Of a DNA stretch of 64,000 nt, positions 33,983-39,157 are shown piece after piece. The notes beneath the pieces were generated by a model. That model saw only the letters and a program-made list of their open reading frames with translations. It did not search any database and was not told the DNA's origin. The position numbers and the translations under genes are program-made. Origin of the DNA: Brevibacterium mcbrellneri ATCC 49030. GTDB lineage: Bacteria > Actinomycetota > Actinomycetes > Actinomycetales > Brevibacteriaceae. The stretch's first letter is position 1. The number at the start of each line of letters is the position of its first letter. The stretch is taken from the NCBI RefSeq assembly GCF_000178455.1, contig NZ_ADNU01000023.1, positions 62,001 through 126,000 on the forward strand, given 5' to 3'.

Positions 33983-34366
33983 GGGGATGATCGGTTTCGA
34001 CGTTGGACATTGCGTCGGGAGAAGCGGGCCGAGAATGCAGACTCAACTCGTGATGCTGTCTGTAAAAAAATAGGTGCTAAATCTAACAACCGCACCGAGT
34101 TCGCTCTCGCCGCCTAATTTAGGCCTTAATCCGCGAGCTGCGACTCCGTCAGCCTAGAGGTGCTTTCCCTCTAGATCCTGGCGTCGTTTAGAAAGCCACT
34201 GCTGCTCACACATGTTGGGGGTGTGAGTGGGACTTTTACTCAACTCCGTTCGTTGGGATAGTGTGTTCGTGCGCTCCCCAGGACCTAAGACACATTTACA
34301 CGTACTGCGCCCGGAGAAGAATCGACAATTTGCCGACGGACGCGGGTTCAATTCCCGCCATCTCCA
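33983..34366 (+). ncRNA. ssrA: Transfer-messenger RNA
   Basis: The gene begins GGGGATGATCGGTTTCGAC and ends with the T-arm GGGTTCAATTCCCGCC and the acceptor strand CATCTCC plus A, which pairs with the 5' GGGGATG. The 3' CCA is not encoded. The reading frame for the tag starts at GCT 34076 and ends at TAA 34115-34117, giving AKSNNRTEFALAA, a typical actinobacterial ending. Pseudoknot arms are visible as CTAGAGG/CCTCTAG near 34155-34175 and CTCACAC/GTGTGAG near 34205-34227. Only the exact terminal base is uncertain. Confidence 0.95.
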
Positions 34367-34373
34367 CAAAAGC

Positions 34374-34416
34374 GAAGTCTCGGGACATCGTTCACTCGAT
34401 GTCCCGAGACTTTTTA
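34374..34416 (+). terminator. Terminator of the tmRNA gene
   Basis: A perfect 15-bp stem (34376-34390 with 34397-34411, AGTCTCGGGACATCG / complement) around TTCACT is followed by a T-run. The first 36 bases of this unit recur exactly at 35287-35322. Confidence 0.92.
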
Positions 34417-34565
34417 TATTGGGGCGTTGAGTCATGTGGTTTTCTCTACACTCTAAGCTCTTTTTCTCGAGGGTTGTAGAGTAACAGGGCGATTTTCGCG
34501 CGAAAACGTGAACAAAACGAACAAAAAGGGTGTTTACTCTACAATCCTGATCGAGAAGTGTAGAG
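34374..34565 (+). repeat. tmRNA-side repeat module, copy 1
   Basis: Three blocks recur downstream in the same order: 34374-34409 (36 bp, exact), 34431-34450 (20 bp, exact) and 34461-34565 (105 bp, exact). The module contains nested inverted repeats: TTTTCTCTACAC (34440-34451) facing GTGTAGAGGAAA (34558-34569), TTGTAGAGTAACA (34474-34486) facing TGTTTACTCTACAA (34531-34544), and the palindrome TTTTCGCGCGAAAA in the centre. Confidence 0.95.
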
Positions 34566-34592
34566 GAAATCGCTCTTGCGTGTGCGCCAACT

Positions 34593-35159
34593 GTGTCGAA
34601 GGTGAGAGACTTCTCTGGCTTGTGGGAAACTTTGAATGTGAATGAGATCATATGGGGATTTTCTTCCGGGCAGTGGGGTGCGGTCGCTGCCATTGGAAGC
34701 CTGATCACGGCGATTATCACTTATCGGGTTGCTGCACAGAATCGAAAATTAACGCTGAGTATTCATCGCCTGAGTGGTCCGTATCCAGTGATGCGTATCT
34801 GTCGGGAGAGAAGTACGAGCCTGAGCGAACCGGCGCACTTGATGATTGTGAGAGTCGAGAACATAGGCCGAATTGCTTGTGAGGTTTCTCCGCCCGTCAT
34901 CGACACTAATCGTATTGGGAAGCGCGTGGTAGTGGATCCACATCTCCGGTTCGAGGGGCCGATCCGGCGGGTGCGTATCGAGCCTTCCAGGCATGTCGAT
35001 TGGACACTCAATATTGACAAGCTCTCAGAAGCTGACAAGAAGAGGGTCGTCTATGTTCACCTTGAGACCCGTGCCACCGGCGGCAATGTGAAGCGGCAAA
35101 AGGTCTTATTGGGTGACTCCTCGAGGCTCATCGATCGGCTGCCTTTGCTGTGGCACTAA
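34593..35159 (+). CDS. Hypothetical protein with one N-terminal membrane segment
   Basis: 188 codons from GTG 34593; TTG or GTG starts a few codons later are equally possible because no RBS stands out. A hydrophobic segment (about residues 28-46, WGAVAAIGSLITAIITY) is followed by a basic, soluble domain (RKLTLSIHRLSG onward). No family is recognised. It is the only gene between the two copies of the repeat module behind ssrA, so it is probably cargo of a small inserted element. Confidence 0.6.
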   Translation: MSKVRDFSGLWETLNVNEIIWGFSSGQWGAVAAIGSLITAIITYRVAAQNRKLTLSIHRLSGPYPVMRICRERSTSLSEPAHLMIVRVENIGRIACEVSPPVIDTNRIGKRVVVDPHLRFEGPIRRVRIEPSRHVDWTLNIDKLSEADKKRVVYVHLETRATGGNVKRQKVLLGDSSRLIDRLPLLWH

Positions 35160-35168
35160 GAACTATTG

Positions 35169-35245
35169 AGGTGGGTGCATGAGATCCGGATTTTGCACCT
35201 ACCCGCTCCGGTTTTGCACCCGCCCTTGCTGAAAATGCACCCACA
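35169..35245. mobile_element. IS21-like terminal remnant (multiple GGTGCAAAA repeats)
   Basis: GTGGGTGCAT (35171-35180) faces ATGCACCCAC (35235-35244) as a perfect 10-bp inverted repeat. Between them, read on the minus strand, are GGGTGCAAAAC and AGGTGCAAAAT, 20 bp apart. Repeated GGTGCAAAA units near the ends are characteristic of IS21-family insertion sequences. No transposase is present, so this would be a solo end or miniature derivative. Confidence 0.5.
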
Positions 35246-35286
35246 TAGAACACTCGTATCAATACCTACGTGGTGACAACCCATGT

Positions 35287-35518
35287 GAAGTCTCGGGACA
35301 TCGTTCACTCGATGTCCCGAGATTTATTGTGTTAATGGGTGTTGGTGTGTCGGGTCATCGTTCCCTTTTTGTGGGTGGGTGTGTCATGTGGTTTTCTCTA
35401 CATCCCAAGTCCATTTTTCTCGAGGGTTGTAGAGTAACAGGGCGATTTTCGCGCGAAAACGTGAACAAAACGAACAAAAAGGGTGTTTACTCTACAATCC
35501 TGATCGAGAAGTGTAGAG
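35287..35518 (+). repeat. tmRNA-side repeat module, copy 2
   Basis: The same three blocks as copy 1 are found at 35287-35322, 35383-35402 and 35414-35518. About 39 bp of extra sequence is inserted after the terminator block. The terminator hairpin itself is intact, but its T-run is altered (GATTTATTG). Nothing encoding a tmRNA end precedes this copy. Confidence 0.95.
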
Positions 35519-35589
35519 TAAACGGTTTCTGTTTGAGTGGTCGGGGGAGGGGCTCAAGAGCGTAGGGTCTACGGTGTGAACAATATCGG

Positions 35590-35844
35590 TCACTCGGTGC
35601 CTCTAGACTTTTTCTTATTCGCTCTCTTTTCTACTCTGCGTTGACGTGCCCGGGCACGTTTGGTTTTGCGGATTTTGACAACCCAACGCGGAACAAAGGG
35701 CCACGGCAGTGGAATCCCGAGAGCGCCGGTGAAGCCGATGACTCCAACGAGGAATGCAATAACGATAGGCACCTGGAATACCGTTTGGATAGGCTCGGAA
35801 AGGCGAAAGGCCTCGACTAGTCCTGCGGCGCCTGCTGCGCCCAT
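35590..35844 (-). CDS. Small basic membrane protein (island)
   Basis: 84 aa. A short N-terminus is followed by one to two hydrophobic stretches (about 20-50, PIVIAFLVGVIGFTGALGIPLPWPF) and a strongly basic tail (RKTKRARARQRRVEKRANKKK). It starts 2 nt after the stop of the neighbouring small gene and is probably co-translated with it. The function is unknown; the size and charge would also suit a toxin-like peptide, but nothing proves it. Confidence 0.55.
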   Translation of the reverse strand: MGAAGAAGLVEAFRLSEPIQTVFQVPIVIAFLVGVIGFTGALGIPLPWPFVPRWVVKIRKTKRARARQRRVEKRANKKKSRGTE

Positions 35845-35846
35845 GA

Positions 35847-36029
35847 TCAGCGAGCCGTAGGGGAAATATAGAGTGCGCCATCACTGTCTGCGCCTTGCGC
35901 ATCGCCGGTGTCGTACCAGGCCTCCGATTCGGGAGTCCTCCGCACGCCCAAGATGTAATAAATCCAATAGAGGATCATGAAAAGGAACAACCCCAGAGCA
36001 ACGAGTAACTCGGTTGTATCCATTCTCAT
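35847..36029 (-). CDS. Tiny single-pass membrane protein (island)
   Basis: 60 codons from ATG 36029, with GGAGG 9 nt upstream (a second ATG is two codons later). Residues about 8-28 form one hydrophobic helix (LLVALGLFLFMILYWIYYIL), followed by an acidic tail (ESEAWYDTGDAQGADSDG). It is the first of two coupled small genes. The good RBS and coupling argue that it is real. No family is recognised. Confidence 0.6.
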   Translation of the reverse strand: MRMDTTELLVALGLFLFMILYWIYYILGVRRTPESEAWYDTGDAQGADSDGALYISPTAR

Positions 36030-36191
36030 AGACTGTGCCCTCCGGTGGACGCTTGTGGCGGTACCGAATAGAAACGTACCAGCCTTCGGTTAGGTCGGGC
36101 ATGTAGTGAAACTTAGACCATGCGAGTTAATCCGAGCTGCGATGGTGGCATGTACGCCTGTCGGGCGGGATTGTAGAGGTAAGGCGGTTCC

Positions 36192-37127
36192 TCAGTATTT
36201 CCACAAGGGCAATGTGGCCCAATCGGTGGGGACTCCCATGTGGCTAAGAGGAAGAATCTTTGTTTGTGGGTAAGTTGTCAACACTGTCGGAAGGGTCGTT
36301 CTGTCGCCAATGCCGAGTTCGGCCAAGAGGTATTGAATGAGCGTGAGCTGACCGAAGGATCTGTTGATTGCGTTTGCCACTGGGGCGAGTTCAGGAACGT
36401 CGTGCTTGGCGGGCAGCTTCGGCTTCAACGTATAGACCCGATTGAACATGCGGTTGTGATGTGCTGAGTAGTTTCGAACAATATTCAATGTTCTAAGCCA
36501 CGAACCAAACTGTGATGCAGATAGTCTGATCTGGGATGCAATGGTGTCTCGTGCGTCTATTGGCGCGAGTTGGTAGAGATATGACAGCGCGCCCCAGTCG
36601 ATGATCTCAACAGCCGCCCAAATGGGCAGTTGCCCTGAATACTTCTTCTTGTGATGAGCAACGAAGTCTTCGCGCGACCGCGACAACTCCTTGTCAAAGA
36701 TGCCCCTCCACTCCGTGTAGGTTCGAGACGGTTTAGCGGACGGCTTTTTATTTCTGGCAACCGGGCCAAGTAGGTCGGGTTTCAAATGAATCAGAGGATC
36801 GATGCGCCCGAGTTCGTGTCCCAAAGCTGAACGGAGTGCCAGCTCGATGGGAATTAGGCAGGTGAACACACCTGCCCGAAGTCGTTCATCAAATTCATAC
36901 AGCGCAAATACTTCTTCAAAGGAAGTGCCATTGACGAACGTATCGAGTCGCTGCCTGCGGTTTGGAGACATTTCACGGTATGGGTACCAGTACCCTGAGA
37001 GTCGGTAGTAGCTCACGTGTTCGAGTGTTCGACGGGCCTCGACCTCATCCTCAAACTTCATACCACGCGAGCGCAGGATATCGATCTGTTGTCCATGTGA
37101 CTTGAAGATTTTCGACGCCTGCGACAT
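36192..37127 (-). CDS. Abi_2 family abortive-infection protein (AbiF/AbiD-like)
   Basis: ATG 37127 lies about 9 nt after GAAGGGA; a start 38 codons further up would run through a promoter and hairpin and is rejected. The 311-aa protein has the Abi_2 pattern: HVSYYRLSGYWYPYR near residue 35, FEEVFALYEFDERLR, IPIELALRSALGHELG, and near residue 220 the R-x4-H motif NIVRNYSAHHNRMFNR, matching a HEPN-type RNase site. Members of this family stop phage growth by killing or arresting the cell. It lies in the small island behind ssrA and is monocistronic. Confidence 0.88.
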   Translation of the reverse strand: MSQASKIFKSHGQQIDILRSRGMKFEDEVEARRTLEHVSYYRLSGYWYPYREMSPNRRQRLDTFVNGTSFEEVFALYEFDERLRAGVFTCLIPIELALRSALGHELGRIDPLIHLKPDLLGPVARNKKPSAKPSRTYTEWRGIFDKELSRSREDFVAHHKKKYSGQLPIWAAVEIIDWGALSYLYQLAPIDARDTIASQIRLSASQFGSWLRTLNIVRNYSAHHNRMFNRVYTLKPKLPAKHDVPELAPVANAINRSFGQLTLIQYLLAELGIGDRTTLPTVLTTYPQTKILPLSHMGVPTDWATLPLWKY

Positions 37128-37149
37128 CTGATTTCCCTTCAGAAGTGCG

Positions 37150-37201
37150 AAGAAAAATGAGGACCGGCCCTGGACTGCCACGAAGAGCAGCGGAACCGGT
37201 C
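37150..37201 (-). ncRNA. Hairpin plus U-tract leader upstream of the Abi gene (candidate small RNA or attenuator)
   Basis: Read on the minus strand, GACCGG (37201-37196) pairs with CCGGTC (37167-37162), and inside this CTGC pairs with GCAG, giving an interrupted hairpin. CTCATTTTTCTT follows directly. A transcript from the promoter at 37213-37241 would fold this way and could stop about 35-45 nt later, before the Abi start at 37127. It could be an attenuator or a short RNA with its own role. Confidence 0.45.
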
Positions 37202-37212
37202 TTGGTGGTGTA

Positions 37213-37241
37213 ATTCTACCGTATTCAACGCTTGCGGGCAA
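37213..37241 (-). promoter_or_regulatory. Promoter of the Abi gene
   Basis: On the minus strand TTGCCC (-35, 37241-37236) and TAGAAT (-10, 37218-37213) are separated by exactly 17 nt. Transcription should begin near 37206, about 80 nt before the ATG. Confidence 0.6.
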
Positions 37242-37498
37242 CGGCCAGACGAAACGGCGCTAAGTGAGCGTCTCGCCCCAACGCTCCCAACACTCGACCG
37301 AAGTGCCGCAAAACTTGTACCACCCCGCCTCCGCCTCCAGCACCCCGCACAACCACTCTCACCAGGCCTCATGTGACGAAAAGTGGCAAAGATAACAATT
37401 TGAACGCGCCTTTCGTGTCGCCGCCTCAAAGTTGTGAGGAGACTCACAGGTGACGCTATAGTGAAGCATTACGTGATCCATAACACACTGGAGGAAGC

Positions 37499-39157
37499 AT
37501 GCGGTCTGCATGGAAAAAGAAGGCGTTCGGCGCTGTTGCCGTTGTCGCCTCAATGGCTTTAGCCGTAACTGGATGCGCCAAGTCGCAACGTGGCGAAGGT
37601 GGCGGGGGAGACGTCGACGGCCACTTTATTTTTGCTGCGTCATCTGACCCCAAAACGCTTGACCCAGCGTTTGCAAGCGACGGTGAGTCATTCCGCATTA
37701 CTCGCCAGATCATGGAAGGGCTGGTGGGTACTAAGCCTGGAACGGCTGACCCAGCTCCTCTCTTGGCCGAATCATGGGACACCAGCGAGGACGGCCTGTC
37801 CTACACCTTCCACTTGAAGGAAGGCGTGAAGTTCCACGACGGAACCGACTTCAACGCTGAAGCAGTCTGCGCAAACTTTGACCGTTGGTACAACTTCACG
37901 GGCATCCAGCAGTCTGAAGCAGTTGCGTACTACTACGGCAAGCTCTTCCGTGGCTTTAAGGACAAGCCAGAAGACGCTGTGTACAAGTCTTGCGAAGCTA
38001 CCGACGAGAAGACCGCAAAGGTCGACCTGGCCCAGCCATTCGCTGGATTCATTGCTGCTCTGTCACTCCCAGCATTCTCCATGCAGTCGCCAGAAGCCAT
38101 GGAAAAGTACAACGCTGACAAGATTGGTGGAAGTGCTGAAGCTCCAGAAATGAGCGAATACGCTCGCGAACACCCAACGGGCACCGGCCCGTTCAAGTTC
38201 GAAGCGTGGAACCCTGGTCAGGACATCAAGCTGAAACTCAACGAAGACTACTGGGGCGAAAAGGGACAGATCAACCAGATCACGTTCCGTGTCATCGACG
38301 ACCCGGTTGCCCGTAAGCAGTCCTTGGAAGCAGGCGAAATTGACGGTTACGACCTGGTTGCACCTGGTGACGTCAAGCCACTGTCTGACGCAGGCTTCAA
38401 CGTGATGAACCGCGACCCATTCACCATCCTGTACTTGGGCTTCAACCAAGAAGTCAAGGAACTCCAGGACGTCAAGGTGCGCCAGGCGATCAGCTACGCG
38501 ATCGACAAGGACGCCCTCATCAAGCAGACCCTTCCTGAAGGAACCAAGCCCGCTGTCACGTTCATCCCTGACAGTGTGAACGGTTACACCGAAGACGTCG
38601 AAAAGTACGAATACAACCAGGAAAAGGCTAAACAGCTTCTGAAAGAAGCCGGCTACGAAGACGGTTTCACTATCGACTTCAACTACCCGACTGGCGTTTC
38701 ACGTCCGTACATGCCTACTCCTGAACAGGTGTTCTCCAACATTTCTGGTCAGCTTGAACAGGTTGGCATTAAGACCAAGGCTGTTCCGGAAAAGTGGTCT
38801 CCTGACTACCTTGACCGTATCCAGGGTGGCAAAAACCACGGCATCCACCTCTTGGGATGGACCGGTGACTACAACGACACCGACAACTTCGTAGGTGTGT
38901 TCTTCGGGACCGAGAAGCCAGAGTTCGGTTTCAACAACCCTGAACTCTTCAAGGCGCTTTCGGACGCCCGTAAGGAACCAAAGTTGGAGAAGCAGACGCC
39001 ACTGTACGAAGACATCAACAAGAAGGTTGCTGAGTTTGCACCGGCCGTGCCTTTGGCACACCCTGCTCCATCGCTCGCGTTCTCAGAACGCGTGGAGGAC
39101 TTCCCGGTCTCACCTGTCAACGATGAAGTCTTCAACGAGATCAAGCTGTCTAAGTAA
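37499..39157 (+). CDS. Peptide ABC transporter substrate-binding lipoprotein (SBP family 5)
   Basis: 552 aa, ATG 37499 behind GGAGGAAG. There is a clear lipoprotein signal peptide with lipobox AVTGC (acylated C26). The mature protein has the family 5 hallmarks: SSDPKTLDPAFASDGES, then LAESWDTSEDGLSYTFHLKEGVKFHDG, and YWGEKGQINQITFRVIDD. It binds oligo- or dipeptides outside the membrane for the two permeases and fused ATPase encoded next. Codon choice is strongly biased (many AAG, GAA, CCA), as in highly expressed genes. An intercistronic terminator-like stem follows. Confidence 0.93.
   Translation: MRSAWKKKAFGAVAVVASMALAVTGCAKSQRGEGGGGDVDGHFIFAASSDPKTLDPAFASDGESFRITRQIMEGLVGTKPGTADPAPLLAESWDTSEDGLSYTFHLKEGVKFHDGTDFNAEAVCANFDRWYNFTGIQQSEAVAYYYGKLFRGFKDKPEDAVYKSCEATDEKTAKVDLAQPFAGFIAALSLPAFSMQSPEAMEKYNADKIGGSAEAPEMSEYAREHPTGTGPFKFEAWNPGQDIKLKLNEDYWGEKGQINQITFRVIDDPVARKQSLEAGEIDGYDLVAPGDVKPLSDAGFNVMNRDPFTILYLGFNQEVKELQDVKVRQAISYAIDKDALIKQTLPEGTKPAVTFIPDSVNGYTEDVEKYEYNQEKAKQLLKEAGYEDGFTIDFNYPTGVSRPYMPTPEQVFSNISGQLEQVGIKTKAVPEKWSPDYLDRIQGGKNHGIHLLGWTGDYNDTDNFVGVFFGTEKPEFGFNNPELFKALSDARKEPKLEKQTPLYEDINKKVAEFAPAVPLAHPAPSLAFSERVEDFPVSPVNDEVFNEIKLSK

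Follow-up and report, generated by a model that had tools for sequence, protein, structure and literature searches.

The abi locus of Brevibacterium mcbrellneri

The window analysed in the current study, a stretch of 64,000 nucleotides from Brevibacterium mcbrellneri ATCC 49030, carries on its minus strand a gene for an Abi_2/AbiF-type HEPN toxin of 311 amino acids (36192..37127, stop codon included), which starts with the ATG at 37127 and ends with the stop codon at 36192. Upstream of this gene and on the same strand, we found a -35-like TTGCCC (37236..37241) separated by 17 nt from a -10-like TAGAAT (37213..37218), a hairpin (37162..37201) that we propose as an RNA antitoxin of AbiF based on folding, alignment and covariation, and the Shine-Dalgarno sequence GAAGGG (37135..37140). 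The hairpin consists of a lower stem of 9 bp, a 1-nt bulge on the 5' side, a 3-nt bulge (CCA) on the 3' side and a variable upper stem-loop. It is directly followed by CTCATTTTTCTT (37161-37150), in which the U-rich tract at 37150..37157 is a proposed terminator or attenuator tail. Including its conserved 5' and 3' tails, the full extent of the RNA under the covariance model R1 (see below) is 37155..37208 on the minus strand (67.9 bits, by construction, the window sequence being a member of the R1 seed alignment).

A previous sequence-only reading of this DNA had described the promoter-like boxes, and behind them a bulged hairpin, a U-rich tract and the abi ribosome-binding site, and all these elements are indeed present. 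It had also assigned the span 36192-37241 to the gene. The Abi_2 gene does lie there, but the 5' end at 37241 had to be abandoned, as it belongs to a mechanical TTG-to-stop frame, the TTG of which coincides with the -35 box and the N-terminal extension of which corresponds to the promoter and the RNA leader. The TTGCCC-17-TAGAAT pattern is found at chance level (one in a 3-kb region versus a shuffle mean of 1.3). Three Abi_2-linked relatives (L005, L006 and L007) have TTGAAG-17-TACACT at the matching place.

The abi cassette is located between the tmRNA gene (ssrA) and an opp-type transporter operon (window 33983-37499). The closest relative (L112, 74% identical) also lies 3' of a tmRNA gene, at a distance of approximately 230 nt, which might point to a common insertion site.

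The encoded protein belongs to the Abi_2/AbiF family

The 311-aa protein matched the Pfam family Abi_2 (PF07751) with an E-value of 1.7e-49 and 169.1 bits (cut-off 25.6), and its PADLOC match was AbiD (3e-61). The HEPN motif RNYSAH is found at residues 218-223 (36459..36476, minus strand), and R218, N219, A222 and H223 were invariant in all 33 aligned rows, the window protein counted. In a phmmer search against PDB chains, residues 10-310 matched 8vz6 (PbAbiF) at 2.3e-36, all other matches having E-values of only about 0.5-1, and a profile search against 8vz6 reached 1.9e-66. The AlphaFold2 model of the protein (pLDDT 95.5) had a single Foldseek match at E<=0.001, again 8vz6, 'PbAbiF dimer bound to ncRNA' (E 4.2e-15 and TM 0.80/0.83 against 8vz6_A). 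With sequence and fold in agreement, 8VZ6 is the one convincing solved relative of the window protein. The assignment of the gene to the Abi_2 HEPN proteins, as made before from the letters alone, is thus confirmed, and its product is likely a phage-defence toxin, its toxicity and RNase activity being inferred.

The leader hairpin is a conserved and covarying RNA

The leader (37212-37128) has a predicted folding energy of -31.2 kcal/mol (z -3.71), and only one of 200 dinucleotide shuffles folded as well or better. That the hairpin is more than a chance fold follows from its conservation in relatives. Four relatives with protein identities of 50-51% (from Gulosibacter, Kocuria, Brachybacterium and Brevibacterium) have a matching hairpin directly upstream of the gene, with identical bulge letters (GGUUCCGC...GUCCAGGGCC) and an upper stem-loop that varies. 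In the 11 nt corresponding to the U-tract, the 11 tabulated Abi_2-linked relatives have 3-9 T's.

The covariance model R1 was built from an alignment of 27 sequences (MAFFT, not model-fitted). Using R1 alone as query, matches were obtained in 36 of 396 sampled genomes of the order and in 15 of 394 of the class (both at E<=0.01), and in 3 of 396 of the phylum (at E<=0.001). These draws overlap, and the searches used stricter filters, so that weak matches were lost. The order and class draws together gave 54 distinct R1 places, 29 of them with a same-strand Abi_2 within 1.5 kb downstream. The proportion with a downstream Abi_2 was 20/27 at scores of at least 60 bits, 4/10 at 50-60, 5/12 at 31-50 and 0/5 below 31 bits. 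The distance from the R1 match to the start of the Abi_2 homology was 3-45 nt in 22 of the 29 places and 107-153 nt in the other seven. Among the 25 places without a downstream Abi_2, one is at a contig end and five are weak matches (<31 bits). The RNA is retained beside Abi_2 proteins down to 33% identity.

Covariation was assessed on 62 R1 matches (53 distinct) in a model-fitted alignment that included the seed members. Pairing was found in 95.0% of the cells versus 87.3% after shuffling, and 63 cells were double-changed versus 20.3 +/- 3.5, a value of 63 not being reached in any of 500 shuffles. When the pairing partner was slid by 1-3 columns, only 2-6 double-changed cells remained. The number of pairs with a double change was 6 versus 3.6 (reached in 4 of 500 shuffles), and the bulk of the covariation signal comes from the upper stem. 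The seed alignment, made with MAFFT without model fitting, contained 24 double-changed cells versus 7.8 shuffled. The leader hairpin is therefore a structured RNA, conserved and covarying in the Actinomycetota. The sequence-only reading had named the lack of a conserved structure upstream of orthologues as an outcome that would refute it, and the covariance search that it had suggested found such a structure in many Actinomycetota.

The window contains a single R1 match and lacks the tandem RNA repeats before the toxin gene that are a feature of type III systems. Elsewhere, L133 and L134 contain two R1 matches each, of slightly different sequence (1648-1700, 1501-1546), the second of which is weak in L133, and L008, the Brevibacterium relative, has a second similar hairpin before Abi_2 (upstream of 2916).

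The RNA differs from the Rfam abiF class

The window contains no match to the abiF RNA of Rfam (RF03085) at the gathering score, nor does the region 37050-37300 at E<=10. The sole Rfam match of the window at gathering was the tmRNA (33983-34369), and the leader at E<=10 gave three unrelated chance matches, none of them abiF. Conversely, R1 fails to match the abiF RNA of phiC2, the homologue of which shows 28% identity with the window protein in alignment. The two classes share their architecture, i.e., a stem, an asymmetric internal loop (1 nt on the 5' side, longer on the 3' side) and an upper stem, placed upstream of Abi_2; the window also has this asymmetric-loop hairpin directly upstream of its Abi_2 gene, without sharing the letters. 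The conserved letters of RF03085 are AAGC...GCUCAAAU, whereas those of R1 are UUCCGC...GUCCAGGG. Thus, the window RNA belongs to a class that Rfam does not hold. AbiF RNA covariance models were built by Zilberzwige-Tal et al., as named in the accessible part of PMC12804078, and these may already cover it.

Within the same genus, RF03085 itself is found upstream of the paralogues L029 and L035, whose identity with the window protein is 24% and 23%, respectively. A longer Abi_2 group is preceded by a related hairpin, GACAGGYCYG..., for which R1 gave 20.5 bits in seven loci, and hairpins of yet other kinds precede the genes of the remaining Abi_2 lineages inspected. The source genome has three further Abi_2 matches (C76 = L002/L031, C66 = L003/L038 and C57 = L004), and R1 was absent from the stretches fetched around them (C66 is at a contig end). 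Upstream of the long Abi_2 of this genome, L031, lies a related GACAGGCCUG hairpin. The distribution of the RNA types over the protein tree is clustered, with 5 changes for 4 labels versus a shuffled mean of 13.4 (as low in none of 200 shuffles). The R1-positive L125 and L138 are separated from the remaining 24 R1 proteins, the grouping of which is itself only moderately supported (85/90), and parts of the tree, which has several long branches, are unsure. Each Abi_2 lineage hence tends to be accompanied by an RNA class of its own, although the correspondence is imperfect.

R1 RNAs without a toxin gene in viral contigs and bacterial genomes

A strict pattern of the hairpin matched 18 stretches in IMG/VR, eight with an Abi_2 sequence downstream and ten without, and the same pattern read backwards matched none. 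In 60 genomes of the family, the pattern was found in seven versus none for the control. Only pieces of Abi_2 are left after the RNA in four of the eight viral stretches (L052, L054, L057 and L062); these and L056 share one identical RNA, which was counted once. Relaxed patterns gave 106 new viral loci, all scored with R1. Only six of them (L069, L077, L081, L092, L093 and L171) reached at least 30 bits, and the other 100 were treated as chance matches. With these additions and after collapsing duplicates, there were 14 distinct viral solo RNAs. PF07751 was not detected in any of the 16 records behind them (the 14 and two duplicates), which may be fragments. The patterns fix the letters of the inner stem and bulge, and the conservation of those letters in this set is by construction; the absence of Abi_2 and the adjacency to tRNA genes were not selected for.

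Six of the 14 viral solos have a tRNA gene on the same strand at a distance of 4-7 nt, namely tRNA-Met (L046 and L055), tRNA-Asp (L069), tRNA-Ser (L077) and tRNA-Ala (L093), with L058 placed between tRNA-Asn and tRNA-Trp. Random placement put on average 0.16 solos within 50 nt of a tRNA gene and reached six in none of 20,000 draws; this permutation was done on the stored stretches, not on whole contigs, with L046/L049 and L060/L063 collapsed. The remaining eight have no tRNA within 50 nt. In L077, the lower stem carries a compensatory change (GAAC/GUUC instead of GACC/GGUC). There are 1-3 T's after five of the six solos adjacent to tRNA genes, a lower number than at most of the 11 tabulated loci linked to Abi_2; L069 has 6, and the other eight viral solos have 1-7.

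Phage genes identified with PHROGs beside the solos include portal and terminase (L046 and L055), terminase (L069), integrase (L050 and L092), major head protein (L081), tape measure (L061) and a phage phosphoesterase family (L053). Nine of the 20 proteins tried had no match, including all those from L058, L077, L093 and L063; the phage nature of these four loci and of L048 and L171 rests on IMG/VR. In L050 (7319-7371) and L092 (10435-10488), the solo RNA is found just downstream of the integrase gene, and L081 has two tandem hairpins (2260-2313 and 2374-2430), the second being a weak match.

The tRNA pair around L058 resembles mycobacteriophage pairs such as that of D29 (71% over approximately 175 nt). 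When two of the tRNA-linked solo hairpins were compared with named phages by BLAST, all matches were weak (best E 3-6). The tRNA-gap hairpins of D29, Priamo and Conspiracy, together with a Ruegeria phage stretch, were rejected as R1 members (best 9.0 bits, E 0.53). The three mycobacteriophages have a recurring strong hairpin of their own in or beside tRNA genes (L161 866-905 in D29, L162 750-790 in Priamo, L163 866-908 in Conspiracy), with the sequence GCGGGCGGUYCCC...GGGGAGCCCCYGC or close to it and unlike R1, which is possibly another small RNA.

Solo R1 RNAs also occur in bacterial genomes. The codons that come after the RNA in L121 and L129 resemble an Abi_2 start; solos without Abi_2 remnants exist as well, such as L159 with L111 and L131 with L148. 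The members of these pairs (L131/L148 in G056 and G005, L111/L159 in G005 and G027) share their flanks between two genomes of the same genus, have no downstream Abi_2, and one of the pairs stands just after a phosphomutase-like gene, as judged from the open reading frame. A weak R1 match on a short bacterial contig (L141 1501-1551, 32.4 bits) has a compensated stem (GGCCAG/CUGGCC) and lies directly after an apparent tRNA 3' end, where ARAGORN calls no tRNA.

RF03085 RNAs without a toxin gene in named phages

An abiF RNA has been reported in cyanophage S-CREM1, where it may well be functional; in the part of that report accessible to us, no link to counter-defence was noticed (PMC9964418). We located this RNA between tRNA-Asn and tRNA-Gly, 4 nt before tRNA-Gly, and detected no Abi_2 match in the whole S-CREM1 record of 177,957 bases. 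BLAST with the S-CREM1 RNA matched 51 records, many of them weakly. Eight further records were fetched, all of which contained RF03085 above the gathering score, and Abi_2 was not found in any of the nine named phage records. RF03085 precedes tRNA-Ala by 4 nt in S-SZBM1 and, in S-SRM01, by 5 nt a tRNA that was found by Rfam and is unannotated in the stretch, so that three of the nine have the RNA 4-5 nt before a tRNA. In the Omegavirus mycobacteriophages Optimus, Redno2, Thibault and Ejimix, it lies approximately 270 nt before tRNA-Gly. No tRNA was seen near the RNA in the T7-like Aeromonas phage PZL-Ah8, which has it between the connector and capsid assembly genes, or in Salicola phage CGphi29. 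Further Omegavirus and Aeromonas records were present among the BLAST matches beyond the nine examined. A reference title in PMC12737573 (Rince 2000) credits a region of phage sk1 with protection against AbiF. Our scan of the whole sk1 genome found two tRNAs and no RF03085 match at E<=1, and sk1 as a carrier of this RNA is unsupported.

A probable RNA antitoxin that may double as a terminator

The closest experimental parallel is the AbiF-RCd22 pair of the Clostridioides difficile prophage phi027, in which an Abi_2 HEPN protein and a hairpin RNA encoded upstream of it share one promoter. As far as the accessible text of that work goes (PMC12373285), AbiFCd is toxic, and RCd22 is transcribed from the shared promoter, in most cases only as far as a terminator that precedes the gene, and neutralises AbiFCd in cis as well as in trans through direct binding. 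In RCd22, there are two RF03085 motifs and a separate terminator, whereas in the window a single hairpin of a different class seemingly also serves as terminator. With its U-tract directly after the hairpin, the window would thus contain the parts of AbiF-RCd22 in a more compact form. Likewise, PbAbiF, solved as a dimer with its ncRNA AbiFr (8VZ6; Zilberzwige-Tal et al. 2025, known to us through what PMC12373285, PMC12737573 and PMC12804078 say of it), is a full-length homologue of the window protein. Both systems lend support to the link between AbiF-type proteins and RNA antitoxins that the sequence-only reading had named, and its suggestion that the leader restrains the protein or acts as an attenuator gains support from the conserved hairpin and the AbiF homology, with binding and release remaining inferred.

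Based on these data, we consider it very probable that the locus is a type III-like toxin-antitoxin or abortive-infection unit, composed of AbiF and an RNA antitoxin that possibly doubles as terminator. Transcription from the putative promoter at 37213-37241 would yield a transcript beginning with the bulged hairpin RNA. Most transcripts would end at the hairpin and U-tract as a short RNA of approximately 50-60 nt, and readthrough would give the toxin mRNA. The RNA is predicted to bind to the AbiF-type protein, an HEPN RNase that is probably dimeric, and to block its active site; infection would upset the balance of RNA and protein, and free AbiF would then cut RNA and stop growth. The gene identity, the HEPN motif, the predicted fold and the conserved, covarying upstream RNA distinct from Rfam abiF are observed. 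As there are no transcript, binding or toxicity data for the R1 clade, promoter use, termination, binding, toxicity and trigger are inferred in it. A structured, conserved noncoding RNA directly upstream of the toxin gene, as in type III systems, is present. As to an intrinsic terminator between RNA and toxin gene, another feature of such systems, the hairpin followed by UUUUUCUU is seen, and a simple terminator scan did not flag it.

The position of the hairpin and U-tract directly before the gene would also fit a purely cis-acting attenuator or terminator of the abi mRNA leader, without any action on the protein. We regard this as improbable, since the letters around the asymmetric bulge are conserved beyond what a terminator needs (later members having partly been chosen by those letters), the toxin-less solo copies adjoin phage tRNA genes and mostly have few U's after them, and the homologous RCd22 works in trans, as far as its accessible description shows (PMC12373285). 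It is scarcely credible that the hairpin lacks any regulatory role and is shared only through recent horizontal spread of the cassette: the cassette is mobile, being found on plasmids H1 and H2 and on viral contigs, but neither the compensatory changes in the stem nor the retention of the RNA beside strongly diverged proteins would be accounted for by such a spread.

Phage copies as possible decoy antitoxins

For the phage solos, an antitoxin copy placed where tRNA enzymes would cut appears best explained as a decoy, an interpretation by analogy for which there is no experiment and in which host AbiF classes have not been matched. Specifically, tRNA processing enzymes would cut the solo RNA from the tRNA cluster as a free small RNA, which would bind the host AbiF and disarm the toxin, and each phage would carry the RNA class that fits the AbiF of its hosts. 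We lean towards this reading, in which solo AbiF RNAs of at least two sequence classes act in this way in unrelated phage groups, with some confidence only. Phage RNAs that mimic the RNA part of a host defence are known from the pseudo-ToxI of PhiTE (PMC3475682) and from the Racr RNA anti-CRISPRs (PMC10651486); these concern other defence systems, and the accessible parts of both papers do not mention tRNA arrays. We found no paper proposing phage solo AbiF RNAs as counter-defence, in a search that lacked many subscription papers and covered no preprints.

That the phage solos are instead what is left of degraded AbiF cassettes, or mere neutral passengers, is rather unlikely but cannot be set aside. 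Such leftovers are suggested by the Abi_2-like codons after the bacterial solos L121 and L129, by the mere pieces of Abi_2 in the viral L052, L054, L057 and L062, and by the eight of 14 viral solos without a tRNA nearby. Yet the records of the viral solos (0/16) and of the named phages (0/9) had no Abi_2 match, and the six R1 and three RF03085 sites adjacent to tRNA genes are hard to explain as leftovers; the decoy function remains our preferred, still conditional, reading.

Implications

AbiF and its RNA have been proposed as the ancestor of Cas13, according to the accessible parts of PMC12373285 and PMC12737573. The class described here, a second one that is distinct in sequence and comes with a protein lineage of its own, provides a natural series for the study of how antitoxin RNA and HEPN RNase change together. 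The phage solos, some of which are present in named phages with common laboratory hosts, make testable both the role of some non-tRNA pieces in phage tRNA arrays and the defeat of AbiF by phage RNA mimics. They also suggest a route to RNA counter-defences, namely the search for orphan copies of the RNAs of defence systems.
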